From Flavobacterium palustre (GTDB lineage: Bacteria > Bacteroidota > Bacteroidia > Flavobacteriales > Flavobacteriaceae): 64,000 nucleotides of DNA. A model generated the notes under the pieces. That model was not told where the DNA came from and ran no database searches. It saw only the letters and a program-made list of their open reading frames with translations. A program made the translations under genes and the position numbers. Below, piece after piece: positions 14,942-23,288 of this stretch (position 1 is its first letter; every line of letters begins with the position of its first letter). Location of the stretch: positions 186,001 through 250,000 of the forward strand of contig NZ_BMGA01000001.1 of NCBI RefSeq assembly GCF_014639535.1, read 5' to 3'.

Positions 14942-15352
14942 TTAAAACGCTATATCAGCCAAAGAGTTATTTTCCAAAACCATTAAGGTATTATCCCTAA
15001 TCTCGGTCATTAAACGACGTGCTGCACAAGTCGCTTCATCTTCACAATCATCACATTTTTCATAAAAATTATGACTTGCACAAGGCAGTAAGGCAATAGG
15101 TCCTTCAAGAATGCGATAGACTTTTGCCATGCTGATTTCTTTAGGATCTTTAATCAAATAATAACCTCCGCCTTTTCCTTTTTTGGCTCCTAAAAAGCCC
15201 GAATTACGAAGTAGCAACAAAATACTCTCCAAAAACTTAATCGAAATATTTTCGCTCTTAGCAATATCTGCAATAGCAACAGGCGTTTGATCTTCCTGGC
15301 GCGCCAAATAAGTCAATGCTTTTATTCCGTATTTTGTCTTTTTAGAAATCAT
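14942..15352 (-). CDS. Rrf2-family transcriptional regulator, probable sulfur-assimilation regulator
   Basis: This 136-residue protein is an Rrf2/IscR/CymR-type winged-helix regulator. The N-terminal HTH covers about residues 8-65, with the family's wing motif KGKGGGYYL at 58-66. Cysteines at 91, 100, 103 and 109 lie where IscR-type proteins bind an iron-sulfur cluster, but the spacing is not that of E. coli IscR. Clustering with cysHDN-sir and TauE/SafE, both with a shared operator-like site, suggests a CymR-like role in repressing sulfate assimilation. No copy of the operator was seen before its own start. Confidence 0.85.
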   Translation of the reverse strand: MISKKTKYGIKALTYLARQEDQTPVAIADIAKSENISIKFLESILLLLRNSGFLGAKKGKGGGYYLIKDPKEISMAKVYRILEGPIALLPCASHNFYEKCDDCEDEATCAARRLMTEIRDNTLMVLENNSLADIAF

Positions 15353-18352: not shown

Positions 18353-20764
18353 TTATCCTTTATCGGACAATCTCAGGATATCTCCAAAAACACCTCTTGC
18401 CGTTACAGCAGAACCCGCTCCGGCTCCCTGAATTACAATAGGTCGGTCTCCGTAAGATTCCGTATAAATTTCAAAGAAAGAATCCGAACCTTTTAATCCG
18501 CCTAAAGCCGTATCTGAAGGAACCGAAACTAATTTCACTTCTAATATTCCTTTGTCATTCTGCAAATCACCTGATAATTCACCTATGTAACGCAGCACGT
18601 GATTTGGTTTTTGTTCCTCTTTTATCTTCGTATAAATTGGGTCGAACTCTTTTAATTTTGTCAGGAAATCAGCGGCACTTCCTTCTCGTAAATGCTCCGG
18701 AATTAAATTCTGAATAGCAATTTCTTCAAATTCATTTTGCAAGTCCAATTCTCTGGCCAAAATCAATAATTTTCTACCTACGTCATTTCCGCATAAATCC
18801 TCACGAGGATCCGGTTCGGTATAACCATTATCAATCGCTTCTTTCAAAATATCACTAAACGGAACGTCTTTAGCAGAGAAATTATTGAATAAATAACTCA
18901 ATGTTCCAGAGAAAACACCTTTAATCTTAGTAATATTTTCACCCGAAAGATGTAATAATTTTATTGTATCAATCAACGGTAATCCCGCTCCCACATTGGT
19001 TTCGTACAAATAATTCTTTTGATTTTCTACCAATACCTTTCTCAGTTCTTTATAGAAACCATAACTCAACGTATTGGCTACTTTATTCGAGGAAATCAAA
19101 TCAAATCCATTTTCAACCAATGGAATATAATTTTCTACAAATGCGGCACTGGCTGTGTTGTCCACCGCAATTAAATTCGCTAAATGATGCTCATTAGCAT
19201 AAGCGATAACATCTTTGATTGTATATGAAAATCCATTCGTCTGGATTTCGTTTATCCAGTTTGGTGTTACGCCATCTTTATTCAGTAATACATTTTTAGA
19301 ATTGGCAATAGCAAAAATATTAAGTTTAATATCCTTTCTTTTCTCTATAGCCTTAGCAGATTCTAAAATTTGATTAATCAAAGTTCCTCCCACTAATCCA
19401 TGACCAAAAATGGCAATATTGATTTTTTTAGAAACTCCAAAAATCTCTCCGTGAATTACGTTTAAAGCTTTATTAAGTTCGTGTTTCTTAACAACCAAAC
19501 TCACATTTTTACCCGTAACAGTATTATTGAATAAAATTGGAATAATTTTATTTCTAATTAAAGCGGTATAAGGCTTGTGAAACGTACTTAAATCCTGCCC
19601 GATAATTGAAATTACCGAAACATCATCGGTTACCGAAATTTTGTTGACATCCTTAGAATAAAAATCATTTTCGAATTCTTTTTCCAATTCTATCATTGCT
19701 TTAGTAGCCTGCGATTCGGCCACTACTAAACCAATCCCTCTTTCGGAAGATCCCTGAGAAATAATACTTACACTGATATTATTATCCCCCATTACTTTAA
19801 AAATACGGGCATCTACTCCTGTTTTTCCCAGTAATCCTCTACCTTCAAGATTTACTAAAGCCAGATTTTCTAAAACCGAAAGCGTTTTAATTCCACCGGA
19901 TTTTGAAGTCGATGTAATTAATGTCCCTTCATTTTCATGATTGAAAGTATTTAATATTCGCAAAGGAATATTTTTCTCTATCAATGGAATGATGGTTTTA
20001 GCATGTAAAATGGTAGCTCCAAAATTAGCCAACTCATTCGCTTCATTAAAAGTCAAATGGTCAATTTTTTTTGCATCGGCTACTAAATCCGGATTAGCGG
20101 TATAAATCCCATCAACGTGGGTGTAATTCTGAAGTTCTTTGGCATTCAAATAATTTGCCAATAAAGAAGCCGTATAATTACTTCCGTTACGTCCTAAAGT
20201 AGTGGTAACATTATTAATATTGGAACCTATAAAACCGGTAACGATATTTACAAAATTGGCATTTTCTTTAAAATACTGAATGACATTTTTCTTGGAAACC
20301 TGTTCTAATGGTTGTGCGTCACCAAATTTTGAATCGGTTTTTAGAAAAATTCTGGAATCGGCAAACTTGGCATTGATTCCTTTTTCAATCAAAATTGCAG
20401 TCAATAATTTAGCCGAAAGCAATTCCCCAACCGAAAGAATTTGGTCTTTGATTTTTGAACTATAATCTCCTATCAAGCTTACACCTTCGTATAATTTATC
20501 CAAAACAGCAAATTCTTCAGACAAGTCCACTTTAGCATAATCATCCTGCTGGTATTGTTTGAATTTTTCAAGCAAAACTTTATAATCGCCGTTTTTAGCA
20601 GCTACTCCCAAAATTTCTTCCAGTTCATCGGTTGCATTTCCACGCGCCGAAACCACAACAGCAATTTCCTCTCCTTGATTTACTTTATCAGCTATTATAG
20701 AAACAACTTTATTGATTCCTTCACCATTCGATAAAGATTTACCTCCAAATTTTAATATTTTCAT
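18353..20764 (-). CDS. thrA: Bifunctional aspartate kinase / homoserine dehydrogenase
   Basis: This 803-residue enzyme catalyses the first and third steps from aspartate to homoserine. The kinase domain opens with MKILKFGGKSL and covers about residues 1-285. A double ACT regulatory region follows (about 300-455). The dehydrogenase starts with the NAD(P) motif IFGHGLVGG (about 464) and has GAGLPLIDT and the catalytic region with DVGRKL. Length matches E. coli ThrA (820). It lies 23 bases after metX under the SAM riboswitch, so here homoserine supply is geared to methionine. Feedback by threonine through the ACT region is expected but not visible. Confidence 0.95.
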   Translation of the reverse strand: MKILKFGGKSLSNGEGINKVVSIIADKVNQGEEIAVVVSARGNATDELEEILGVAAKNGDYKVLLEKFKQYQQDDYAKVDLSEEFAVLDKLYEGVSLIGDYSSKIKDQILSVGELLSAKLLTAILIEKGINAKFADSRIFLKTDSKFGDAQPLEQVSKKNVIQYFKENANFVNIVTGFIGSNINNVTTTLGRNGSNYTASLLANYLNAKELQNYTHVDGIYTANPDLVADAKKIDHLTFNEANELANFGATILHAKTIIPLIEKNIPLRILNTFNHENEGTLITSTSKSGGIKTLSVLENLALVNLEGRGLLGKTGVDARIFKVMGDNNISVSIISQGSSERGIGLVVAESQATKAMIELEKEFENDFYSKDVNKISVTDDVSVISIIGQDLSTFHKPYTALIRNKIIPILFNNTVTGKNVSLVVKKHELNKALNVIHGEIFGVSKKINIAIFGHGLVGGTLINQILESAKAIEKRKDIKLNIFAIANSKNVLLNKDGVTPNWINEIQTNGFSYTIKDVIAYANEHHLANLIAVDNTASAAFVENYIPLVENGFDLISSNKVANTLSYGFYKELRKVLVENQKNYLYETNVGAGLPLIDTIKLLHLSGENITKIKGVFSGTLSYLFNNFSAKDVPFSDILKEAIDNGYTEPDPREDLCGNDVGRKLLILARELDLQNEFEEIAIQNLIPEHLREGSAADFLTKLKEFDPIYTKIKEEQKPNHVLRYIGELSGDLQNDKGILEVKLVSVPSDTALGGLKGSDSFFEIYTESYGDRPIVIQGAGAGSAVTARGVFGDILRLSDKG

Positions 20765-20787: not shown

Positions 20788-21756
20788 CTAAAAAATAGGA
20801 GCAAGTAAGTTGTTTAATTGTTCAAACTCAATCAGGAAAGCATCGTGTCCGTGAATGGATTCTATTTCTTTATAAAAAACATTCACCTGATGTTTTTTTA
20901 ATTCCTGATAAGTGTCTTTATTTTCTTTTGCGGTAAAAAACAAATCTGAATTTATACCAATTATATGAATTGTTGCTTCAATTTTTGAAGCAAAAACTTC
21001 GAAAGAATCTCTGTTTCTGGTTACATCAATCGTTTTTAATAATTGATTCATCATTTTATAAGATGCCAATTGAAAACGTTTTTGCAATTTTTTCCCGTGA
21101 TGAAGCAGCCAACTTTCGATATTAAATATCGCTAATTCCTCATTAATAGTTCGATCAAATTTCATCTTAAAAGATTCCGGTGTTCTGTAACACAGCATTG
21201 CATGAATACGGGCATCTTCAATAGGATTTGACGAATTTTTCAAAATTTGTTCCTGTAAAAAACAATTGGCTATCAACCAATCGGTCGACTTCCAATCGGT
21301 AGCAATAGGAATTAAATGTAAAGCCAACTTAGGTTCTAAAGCAATCATCTCCCAGGCAATTCCACCTCCTACTGAGCCTCCGATAATAGCATACAATTGT
21401 TGAATTTTAAGATACTTTACTCCTTCAATAAAAAGCCTTGCAATATCTCTGGCAGTAAAATCCAAATAGTTTTCTACAATTGTGCCATCGTATCCATTTC
21501 CCGGAACATTAAAAGCCAGAATAGAATATTTATTAGTATCAATAGTTTTATTTTCTCCAATTAAGTCATTCCACCATCCTGACGGACCAATAACCTGAGA
21601 ATTTCCAGTCAATGCGTGATTAACCAAAACAACAGGCGCTGTATTCAATTCAGGACCAAAAATCTGGTAGCTTAAATTTAAAACAGGATATAATGCACCA
21701 CTCTCGGTAGTGAAATTTTGAATTATAATGTGATTGGGTTTATTTTCCAATTTCAA
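20788..21756 (-). CDS. metX: Homoserine O-acetyltransferase (alpha/beta hydrolase fold)
   Basis: This enzyme activates homoserine with an acyl group, usually acetyl, at the entry to methionine synthesis. The 322-residue protein has the oxyanion segment NHALTGNSQ, the nucleophile elbow GGSVGGG, an aspartate in INSDLFF and a histidine in IHGHDAF, making a Ser-Asp-His triad. It is shorter than most MetX proteins (350-380). As the first gene of the operon it lies directly behind the SAM-I riboswitch. Acetyl versus succinyl specificity cannot be decided by eye. Confidence 0.92.
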   Translation of the reverse strand: MKLENKPNHIIIQNFTTESGALYPVLNLSYQIFGPELNTAPVVLVNHALTGNSQVIGPSGWWNDLIGENKTIDTNKYSILAFNVPGNGYDGTIVENYLDFTARDIARLFIEGVKYLKIQQLYAIIGGSVGGGIAWEMIALEPKLALHLIPIATDWKSTDWLIANCFLQEQILKNSSNPIEDARIHAMLCYRTPESFKMKFDRTINEELAIFNIESWLLHHGKKLQKRFQLASYKMMNQLLKTIDVTRNRDSFEVFASKIEATIHIIGINSDLFFTAKENKDTYQELKKHQVNVFYKEIESIHGHDAFLIEFEQLNNLLAPIF

Positions 21757-21785: not shown

Positions 21786-21922
21786 ATTAAAAAGAAAGTT
21801 CAATAAACTAGAAGATTTACATTGTTATCTTTTCCGCCGTGGCGGATAGAATGTAGCACCTTCTTCGACAATCGAAGGGTTGCTAAGGCATCATCGGGTC
21901 TAATCCCTCGTCCTTTCTTTAT
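21786..21922 (-). ncRNA. SAM-I (S-box) riboswitch upstream of metX
   Basis: On the minus strand the S-box core is clear: GAGGGATTAGACCCGATGA, then CCTTAGCAACC, and GGTGCTACATTCTATCC after the P3 hairpin (CTTCGATTGTCGAAG). P1 is AAAGAAAG (near 21919-21912) with CTTTCTTT (21798-21791), and P4 is AAGAT/ATCTT. It senses S-adenosylmethionine and should switch off metX-thrA-18039-osmC-metZ when SAM is high. No terminator is seen between P1 and the metX ATG 30 bases on, so translational control is more likely. Confidence 0.92.
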
Positions 21923-21955
21923 AACATTTCAATATGCTTACGAACTTTAAAGTGG

Positions 21956-21987
21956 CAAAGTAACCACTATTTTTTCAAACAAACAAA
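21956..21987 (-). promoter_or_regulatory. Promoter of the metX operon
   Basis: TTTG (21984-21987) and TTACTTTG (21956-21963, seven of eight consensus positions) are spaced by 20 bases on the minus strand. The predicted start site is about 21949, just ahead of the SAM-I riboswitch. Confidence 0.6.
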
Positions 21988-22028
21988 TTTTGCTGATTAT
22001 AGATTAAAACCAGCGGTAACATAACAAA

Positions 22029-22077
22029 CAAACGCAAGTCATCACTGAACACAAAATCCAGAAATCACCTGCGTTTG
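22029..22077 (-). terminator. Long imperfect hairpin after the 68-codon ORF
   Basis: CAAACGCA (22029-22036) pairs with TGCGTTTG (22070-22077), and the pairing continues with few mismatches for about 19 bp, loop near 22049-22058. On the minus strand it is followed by TTTGTTATG, a weak T-rich tail. It may end the transcript of the 68-codon ORF before the metX promoter, or be a structured RNA in its own right. Confidence 0.5.
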
Positions 22078-22101
22078 AAACCTATATTTACAAAACTATA
22101 C

Positions 22102-22308
22102 TTAGATGAACAGTGTTTCATTTTCTTTAGAATACATCATAAACGTTAATGAATTGACTGCTTTCTTTTGATCTTTAAAATTTGGATCTAAATTAATACC
22201 AAATCTGGCATTTGTCAATTCTACTCTATTTTCTTTTTTCTCAATGTTAGTACTCCTTATGTTCCTTATAAGTTCTAACGCCCTTGTAATCATTCTTTTT
22301 GTGCTCAT
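22102..22308 (-). CDS. 68-residue hypothetical protein behind two attenuator-like leaders
   Basis: I do not recognise this protein. It has no signal peptide or membrane segment, is basic at the N-terminus and opens MSTKRMITRALELIRNIRS. Its first 20 codons are rich in Thr, Ile and Arg and include three AGG codons. No promoter is visible between the terminator at 22374-22405 and its ATG, so it probably depends on readthrough of both upstream terminators. It could be the regulated product, a third leader peptide ending at the hairpin 22029-22077, or a decayed gene. Whether it is translated is uncertain. Confidence 0.45.
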   Translation of the reverse strand: MSTKRMITRALELIRNIRSTNIEKKENRVELTNARFGINLDPNFKDQKKAVNSLTFMMYSKENETLFI

Positions 22309-22373: not shown

Positions 22374-22405
22374 AAACCCTTTTGGTTACTGTACCAAAAG
22401 GGTTT
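22374..22405 (-). terminator. Terminator of the second leader unit
   Basis: On the minus strand AAACCCTTTTGGT and ACCAAAAGGGTTT form a perfect 13-bp stem with a 6-base loop, followed by a run of seven T. It begins 29 bases after the leader stop codon at 22434. CCAAAAG at 22430-22424 can pair with the left arm (CTTTTGG, 22400-22394) and so act as an antiterminator. Confidence 0.85.
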
Positions 22406-22433
22406 ATCTACTTATAAACGATACTTTTGGAAA

Positions 22434-22511
22434 TCAACAGACCAGTAACTTTGCGCAAGACATAGAGACTGTAGTAAACTGCTTATTGTTCTTAATAGTA
22501 ATAGTAATCAT
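22434..22511 (-). CDS. Candidate Thr/Ile-rich leader peptide (25 codons)
   Basis: An ATG at 22511 opens a 25-residue peptide starting MITITIKNNK and ending SCAKLLVC, with stop TGA at 22434-22436. Five of its first six codons are Ile or Thr, like the E. coli thr operon leader. A terminator follows at 22374-22405, and an antiterminator-like segment starts three bases after the stop, where a ribosome at the stop codon would cover it. This is the classic layout of transcription attenuation. No promoter lies between this ORF and the terminator at 22559-22588, so it is probably reached by readthrough from the first leader. Translation is unproven. Confidence 0.6.
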   Translation of the reverse strand: MITITIKNNKQFTTVSMSCAKLLVC

Positions 22512-22558
22512 TGTAATTTTAATTGTAATTGAATTTTTAATTATTTGTGTTTTAACAA

Positions 22559-22588
22559 AAAAGCCTCCTGATTTCTCGGGAGGCTTTT
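22559..22588 (-). terminator. Terminator of the first leader unit
   Basis: On the minus strand AAAAGCCTCC and GGAGGCTTTT form a 10-bp GC-rich stem with loop CGAGAAATCA, followed by six T. The opposite strand also has a short T-run. CGGGAG within the upstream leader ORF (22639-22634) can pair with CTCCCG of its left side (22582-22577). Confidence 0.85.
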
Positions 22589-22620
22589 GCTATATTTTTA
22601 ATCTTATTTGAATAAAAAAA

Positions 22621-22689
22621 TTAAGCTATCGCACTCCCGTCGATTTCTTTCGCTTTAACCATTGATTTTTTACAAATAATAAAATTCAT
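22621..22689 (-). CDS. Candidate leader peptide (22 codons)
   Basis: An ATG at 22689, about 16 bases after a predicted start site, opens a 22-residue peptide starting MNFIICKKSM and ending DGSAIA, with stop TAA at 22621-22623. A strong terminator starts 33 bases later. Codons 17-19 contain CGGGAG, which can pair with the terminator's left side and would be covered by a ribosome at the stop codon. Lys (4), Ile (4), Met and Cys codons are present, so the amino acid sensed cannot be read off. Size, promoter spacing and the competing pairs support a leader rather than a chance ORF. Confidence 0.5.
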   Translation of the reverse strand: MNFIICKKSMVKAKEIDGSAIA

Positions 22690-22705
22690 TTCTTGTTTTT
22701 GTTTA

Positions 22706-22739
22706 GAGTCACAAATATACAAATTAATATTTATGACTC
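22706..22739 (-). promoter_or_regulatory. Promoter of the leader region inside a 34-bp palindrome
   Basis: TATATTTG (22712-22719, minus strand) matches the -7 consensus and points to a start near 22705, about 16 bases before the first leader ORF. It is embedded in an imperfect palindrome, GAGTCA...TGACTC (22706-22739), with AAATAT/ATATTT inside, a layout typical of a repressor site over a promoter. TGACTCA occurs again at 22811-22817. Confidence 0.55.
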
Positions 22740-23114: not shown

Positions 23115-23127
23115 CACCTCAAAATAC

Positions 23128-23222
23128 AAGAGGAAAAATTTGAACTGATTGCAACCTCTTCATAATGAAACAAAATCATTATGAATACTGAAAAATTTCA
23201 GTAGAAAAAAATGCTAAAGCAG
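23128..23222 (+). ncRNA. SAM-II-like riboswitch upstream of metK
   Basis: AAGAGG (23128-23133) and CCTCTT (23155-23160) form P1 around a loop containing AATTTGAACTGATTGCAA. A 3' strand, AAAAATGCTAAAGCAG (ending 23222), can close a pseudoknot with it (CTG 23145-23147 with CAG 23220-23222; GCA 23151-23153 with TGC 23212-23214). The ATTTGA...TTGCA loop and ATGCTAAA strand match my memory of the SAM-II consensus. Two extra hairpins (23161-23183 and 23186-23203) are inserted in the joining region. The position before SAM synthetase supports SAM sensing. Confidence 0.72.
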
Positions 23223-23288
23223 AAACCCTCCTTTAGTCTTTTTTTTGCAATTCATTTTCCTCGCCTAATTTTAAACAAATTATATATT

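Follow-up and report, generated by a model that had tools for sequence, protein, structure and literature searches.

Attenuation of transcription by a ribosome that translates a short leader peptide is classically represented by the trp, his, leu, and thr leaders of amino-acid operons. The Flavobacterium locus described here resembles these systems in combining a short ORF with control codons, an antiterminator that overlaps the region of the stop codon, and an intrinsic terminator, but it differs from them in its predicted control codon, which specifies cysteine, in the presence of two serial switches, and in the small protein that is encoded first downstream. In mycobacteria, polycysteine short ORFs have been described as cysteine-responsive attenuators (Canestrari et al., 2020, cited in PMC13236596 and PMC9094748). 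As far as the excerpts of the citing papers go, the mycobacterial system is similar in that ORFs with cysteine codons serve as attenuators, but it belongs to another phylum, and the Flavobacterium case displays a clear terminator and antiterminator. Two short ORFs within one leader RNA are found in the mgtCBR operon of Salmonella, where both affect coding-region transcription. They respond to ATP and proline, and the excerpted text calls this a singular example of tandem attenuators for different signals (PMC3641672). Compared with those excerpts, the present locus likewise has two short ORFs in one leader, on a single transcript that is predicted from the sequence, but here both signals could be sulfur amino acids, and mgtCBR is not the target. 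Within the same genus, transcriptome data of F. psychrophilum gave "strong clues" for leader-peptide attenuation before amino-acid operons, although cysteine leaders, tandem leaders, and the small protein are not named in the excerpts of that study (PMC9723704). Leader-like short ORFs are also mentioned for Bacteroides in a passage of another paper (PMC7366714). Both tandem attenuators and cysteine leaders have precedents, but their combination ahead of this small-protein family was not found in print: among the matches listed, no title or abstract dealt with cysteine leaders or with the small-protein family in Flavobacterium.

The DNA that was analyzed, referred to below as the window, is a stretch of 64,000 nucleotides of Flavobacterium palustre. 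Domain matches identify it as a sulfur and methionine cluster. By our reading of the domains, its members include two PAPS-reductase-domain proteins, a CysN-like GTPase, a sulfite reductase, a siroheme-synthesis protein, a homocysteine methyltransferase, a metZ-like sulfhydrylase, a TauE exporter, and an Rrf2 regulator. The latter (14942-15352), which is encoded near sulfate-assimilation genes, is CymR-like according to an NCBIfam match below its cut-off. A Flavo-1 RNA (Rfam RF01705; 6467-6549) is located beside sulfur genes. The cluster also contains metK, preceded by a SAM-II riboswitch (23124-23227; 45.3 bits vs. a threshold of 44), and, divergently oriented on the minus strand, a SAM-I riboswitch (21822-21927; Rfam RF00162, 77.3 bits) ahead of metX (20788-21756), which is homoserine O-acetyltransferase-like by domain matches with NCBIfam scores under their cut-offs, and of thrA (18353-20764), which encodes a bifunctional aspartokinase/homoserine dehydrogenase according to domain matches. 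Thus, two classes of SAM riboswitches are found within ~1.4 kb. Between metK and the SAM-I-metX-thrA segment lies the unit of interest, consisting of two leader ORFs, L1 and L2, and a gene for a conserved small protein, SP. We propose, with a probability of roughly 70%, that one RNA runs through two leader-peptide switches in series, the second of which senses cysteine, and then reaches SP.

All features of this unit are located on the minus strand. The −7 promoter element TATATTTG (22712-22719) is the sole match to TAnnTTTG, the Bacteroidetes −7 consensus, within 620 nt upstream of SP. It is followed by L1, a 22-codon ORF that is kept in relatives (22621-22689; MNFIICKKSMVKAKEIDGSAIA*), and by terminator 1 (22559-22588), which has a z score of −5.6 with none of 200 shuffles folding as well; the same stem was also listed on the plus strand. 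Next come L2, of 25 codons (22434-22511; MITITIKNNKQFTTVSMSCAKLLVC*), terminator 2 (22374-22405; z −5.5, 0/200 shuffles), and the ORF for SP of 68 amino acids (22102-22308). The original prediction had placed the promoter, both leader ORFs, both terminators, and the antiterminator strands at these same coordinates, which hold on re-checking; what it had missed are the cysteine codons of L2 and the conservation of the 68-codon ORF as a gene. A scan of the 64 kb, covering both strands, yielded 12 candidates for a short ORF with a terminator behind it. Of all pairs on one strand, L1 and L2, with a spacing of 110 nt, are the closest, and L2 alone among the 12 contains two Cys. The next-closest pair (62189 and 62552, plus strand) is separated by ~300 nt, and its first ORF overlaps a tRNA gene.

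Relatives were collected by a search of named genomes with SP, in which the best 80 of 144 relatives, titled Flavobacterium or close kin, were kept; since these loci were found by means of SP, tallies on the 80 named loci are conditional on it. Both leader units are present in 51 of the 81 loci (window included), and no TAnnTTTG is found between them in the window. This conservation and the single promoter element support the earlier idea that two leader-peptide attenuators would be arranged in series behind one promoter. The −7 element had also been noted to lie within a 34-bp palindrome (22706-22739), and this palindrome was confirmed: its arms match at 12 of 13 positions, which was equaled by 2 of 300 shuffles. 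It was found in only one of 15 relatives tested, i.e., F. undicola, with one position altered on both arms, and a conserved operator was rejected, as the palindrome was not found in the other 14.

The strongest mechanistic evidence in this case is the covariation in the predicted antiterminator of L1. Its 5′ strand, CGGGAG (22634-22639), from which the pairing runs 3′ toward the stop codon, and its 3′ strand, CTCCCG (22577-22582), which is shared with the 5′ arm of terminator 1, were assigned by folding and covariation; the terminator's CTCCC is the pairing partner of GGGAG within ORF 1. The folded segment (22575-22645) had a z score of −4.7, with 0 of 200 shuffles as good, and 26 of 35 segments from the alignment had z < −2. 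In a swap test on these 35 sequences, the native duplexes scored −12.94 vs. −11.16 kcal/mol for swapped ones, and 0 of 3000 permutations were as good, whereas two controls showed no native advantage (2989/3000 with the 12 sequences that were long enough, and 2937/3000 with 35 sequences). The alignment comprised 35 of 39 prepared sequences; L089 and L096 on the SP side and L089 and L090 on the metY side were left out. By eye, matched changes are seen as CGGGAG/CTCCCG, CAGGAG/CTCCTG, and GCAGAG/CTCTGC, and in a second helix, TTGCT/AGCAA becomes TTGTA/TACAA in relatives.

For L2, alignment and folding assign CCAAAAG (22424-22430), situated 3′ of the stop codon, and CTTTTGG (22394-22400), the latter shared with the 5′ arm of terminator 2, as the antiterminator strands. 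The segment in the window has a z score of −1.87, with 11 of 200 shuffles folding equally well (z −1.32 on a slightly longer stretch); among 66 distinct segments, 34 have z < −2, which that of the window does not reach, and the mean is −1.95. Native and swapped duplexes scored alike (−7.52 and −7.56), i.e., there is no covariation, and the test is silent here because CCAAAAG/CTTTTGG is nearly invariant; a control segment was slightly better native than swapped (−3.36 vs. −3.07, 35/3000). An inner helix of L2 reads GTTTAT/ATAAAC in the clade of the window and AAGTT/AACTT in many other relatives, as judged by eye and from folds. In the leaders that precede metY, discussed below, CCAAAAG is located inside the ORF, where it encodes ...CCCQK*; hence, the letters of the RNA persist although they are read in another context. 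Indels in two alignments, A2 and A3, are mostly whole codons within the leader ORFs, with the exceptions of L092 in A2 and, in A3, of L092, L095, L101, L102, and L123, which differ by 1 nt close to where ORF 1 ends.

As judged from its peptides, L2 is a cysteine leader across the family. It is present in 79 of the 81 loci; a script had scored all 81, which was corrected since in L102 and L123 the sole element is of the L1 type. Peptide statistics cover 77 of the 81 loci, as the regular expression missed L095, L101, L102, and L123. Cys is found in all 68 distinct L2 peptides, picked by a script that, among several ORFs ending in range, preferred one with Cys near its end. Counted from the end, Cys occupies position −1 in 65 of them, −5 in 42, −3 in 24, and −7 in 14; its place shifts, but its presence stays. 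Peptides of relatives end, for example, in ...NVARICVCVC*, ...TVALICAYVC*, or ...MICANAIMCIRVC*, and that of the window in ...SCAKLLVC*. Twenty representative peptides contain 39 Cys, where a non-coding Markov model would give 17.3 (P 3e-6) and the neighboring proteins 2.1, the latter background consisting of sulfur-pathway enzymes with a low Cys content (0.40%, vs. 0.70% in the long ORFs of the window). The window's L2 has two Cys codons only, one of which is the last codon. Given the footprint of a ribosome, a stall at this last codon would partly cover the antiterminator.

L2 had originally been likened to E. coli thrL as a Thr/Ile-rich leader, and the peptide in the window does open with MITITI, with an aspartokinase gene downstream. 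This opening is confined to the close kin of the window, whereas terminal Cys codons are general, and neither amino acid is enriched over the 20 representatives (22 Thr vs. 32.7 expected; 46 Ile vs. 47.1), which makes a Thr/Ile leader highly improbable. The thr operon leader of Rfam (RF00506) was also rejected as the identity of L2, with a score of 16.7 bits against a gathering threshold of 55; no Rfam family exceeded its threshold over L1 or L2. A positive control exists within the genus: locus L027 contains an Ile-rich leader, MKNIVIIPSISIAIAIIARAGECCN*, with the same kind of terminator, ahead of ORFs that we read as ilvE- and ilvD-like, and a similar one is present in L035.

SP is, by the signature of its sequence evolution, a real gene under selection, with dN/dS values of 0.09-0.61 relative to five relatives and a C-terminal tail, MYSKENETLFI, that hardly varies as far as the stop codon while showing synonymous changes. 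Its closest relatives among the best 80 of 144 are those of F. sufflavum (88%) and F. undicola (81%). SP had no Pfam match at E 0.1 and no NCBIfam match at E 0.01, and matches in the PDB, the best with E 0.008, look like chance and were dismissed. AlphaFold proposes two helices with a mean pLDDT of 61 and a pTM of 0.26, a model too poor for a fold search. Outside the genus, no convincing SP was found in two samples of 247 and 197 genomes, own-genus genomes apart; each sample held two genus genomes (G000 and G075), both with strong matches. Three weak matches among the 247 and five among the 197 (E 0.004-0.044) were not accepted, most having stops or being misplaced.

The linkage between L2 and SP was assessed in 199 genomes of the genus by a tally of L2 model matches without conditioning on SP. 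L2 was found at ≥56 bits in 77 of the 102 genomes with any model match, SP at E ≤ 3.2e-4 in 78 of the 92 with any match, and both together in 73 (hypergeometric P 7e-43, relatedness ignored); L2 occurred without SP in four genomes and SP without strong L2 in five. In all 73 genomes, the two are on the same contig and strand, and in 59 they are within 200 nt. In the other 14, they are ~300-1600 nt apart, with metY in between in both cases inspected (G045 and G104). Matches to the L2 model beyond the genus (93 of 199 family genomes at E ≤ 0.01) were not counted as spread because their listed scores do not exceed 45.6 bits and because weak matches in the own genome look like terminators; besides the one at metY, five such matches were inspected, all ordinary-looking terminators. 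Likewise, DNA search matches (130/199) were not tallied because many are terminator pieces only. The 25-aa L2 peptide, which is too short a query, matched in 5 of 40 genomes, convincingly in the own genome and G005 alone, and a plasmid search gave no match.

Of the 80 named loci, 68 have a metY gene that could be placed upstream of SP. Cys and Met are abundant in its leaders, e.g., MKTIANNMMICCEMMQMCIPIRCCQK*, an enrichment that is biased for Cys because ORFs lacking Cys were kept off the list. A small ORF (54-65 codons), found 44-143 nt ahead of metY in 56 of the 68 loci, encodes a protein with an SP-like tail, e.g., SLLFQMYDLEDEDLFI. The members of this metY-side family (L094, L100, L105, L107, and others) are positioned between the Cys/Met leader and metY; four of them gave no Pfam match above threshold. 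In the genome of the window, metY is located on another contig and has its own Cys/Met leader, MKIVTKKMNMCCMMPMCSTHSYCLKRKK*, and no second small protein is present there.

The homologues at metY bear on the possibility that SP is an arrest peptide, whose invariant C-terminus would stall the ribosome and control what follows. The near-invariance of the tail up to the stop codon would fit, but the tails of the metY-side homologues vary before the stop (LFI, LYV, FFLQ, LLFKSN, and EADQ), and the hairpin 3′ of SP starts ~25 nt past the stop codon, beyond the usual reach of a ribosome. We consider such a role very unlikely.

Our best guess for the signal of L1 is also cysteine, or sulfur amino acids. 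L1 is present in 53 of the 81 loci (50 by script, and L102, L121, and L123 by eye) and absent in 28. In L094, L103, L122, and their kin, 250-400 nt upstream of SP, L1 has apparently decayed, its start codon and terminator being unrecognizable, and L2 and SP remain. The original description of L1 as a leader rich in Lys and Ile was not borne out: in 12 representatives at SP, Lys is high relative to proteins (32 vs. 17.0), but the non-coding model of AT-rich DNA also gives ~32 (13.2% of 240 codons), and Ile is not enriched (P 0.16). Met is mildly enriched (11 vs. 4.3 by the non-coding model, P 0.005), and L1-type leaders ahead of metY carry Cys and Met, with the bias of listing mentioned above. 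Cys is found in 45 of the 53 L1 peptides, including one in that of the window, but it is lacking in eight, and at SP it does not significantly exceed the non-coding model (10 vs. 7.7, P 0.25). It is therefore quite possible, if not our preferred view, that L1 gates in response to general translation or to some other signal, with L2 alone being specific for an amino acid and with two signals as in mgtCBR; K and S, which are mildly high relative to proteins, and a small hairpin within the ORF, seen by eye ahead of the antiterminator in many relatives, would be compatible with this. The Met enrichment and the metY leaders argue for sulfur amino acids.

The most likely regulated gene, as predicted from the arrangement, is SP rather than metX-thrA, which the original prediction regarded as the operon to which the leaders lead. 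The reasons are the L2-SP linkage, the promoter-like element and SAM-I riboswitch that metX-thrA have of their own, and the hairpin between the units; SP, moreover, is the next conserved gene. This hairpin (22029-22077; z −6.7 for the fold of 22020-22085) is the probable end of the unit, and a similar inverted repeat is seen by eye in many of 17 relatives, though not in L091 or L154. The promoter-like stretch TTTGTTTGTTTG...TTACTTTG (21956-21987, minus strand) precedes SAM-I, and in an alignment of 18 species its element is kept as TTAATTTG or TTACTTTG in 17 and as TTTCTTTG in one, whereas the stretch just upstream is not kept. The reservation already voiced, that this hairpin and a separate metX promoter speak against transcripts that extend to metX, agrees with these data. 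Control of the whole stretch including metX-thrA, with one transcript gated by two attenuators and a SAM-I riboswitch, would agree with the position of metX, which is found 3′ of SP on the same strand in all 80 named loci (341-456 nt past SP in the 78 measured; the filter missed metX of L093 and L123, where it is present). It would also agree with the lack of a canonical U-tract in the hairpin, which may allow some read-through. Nevertheless, the strong hairpin and the conserved promoter-like element make control of the whole stretch unlikely.

With SP as the probable target, the following course of events can be predicted. Transcription would start near 22705, and the polymerase would meet two ribosome-controlled terminators one after the other. 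If charged tRNA is plentiful, the ribosome would proceed to the stop codon of the leader and cover the antiterminator strand, and the terminator would form. If charged tRNA is short, the ribosome would stall upstream, leaving the antiterminator to pair with the 5′ arm of the terminator, and transcription would continue. In L2, a stall at Cys19 would leave CCAAAAG free, whereas a ribosome at the stop codon would hide it; L1 is built alike. Both decisions would have to be passed, as they are in series, and SP would be made after escape from both terminators, i.e., in shortage of cysteine or, more broadly, sulfur amino acids.

More tentatively, a genus-wide family of small proteins, with a tail like SLLFxMYxxExExLFI, may be switched on under starvation for cysteine or sulfur amino acids via one or two attenuators and affect sulfur or methionine metabolism in trans. 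One member would be encoded before SAM-I-metX-thrA and a homologous second one before metY, and the serial switches might function as an AND gate and thereby make the response sharper.

For Bacteroidota, transcriptomes have given hints of leader-peptide attenuation, which is not worked out in the excerpted passages. The present case offers predicted control codons, covariation, and a candidate regulated gene, all of which are open to testing in a tractable genus. Cysteine would be added to the amino acids that are sensed, and two serial attenuators would stand beside SAM-I and SAM-II riboswitches. For the small-protein family, the case predicts under which condition the genes would be expressed, a point that is often the most difficult to guess for genes of this type.
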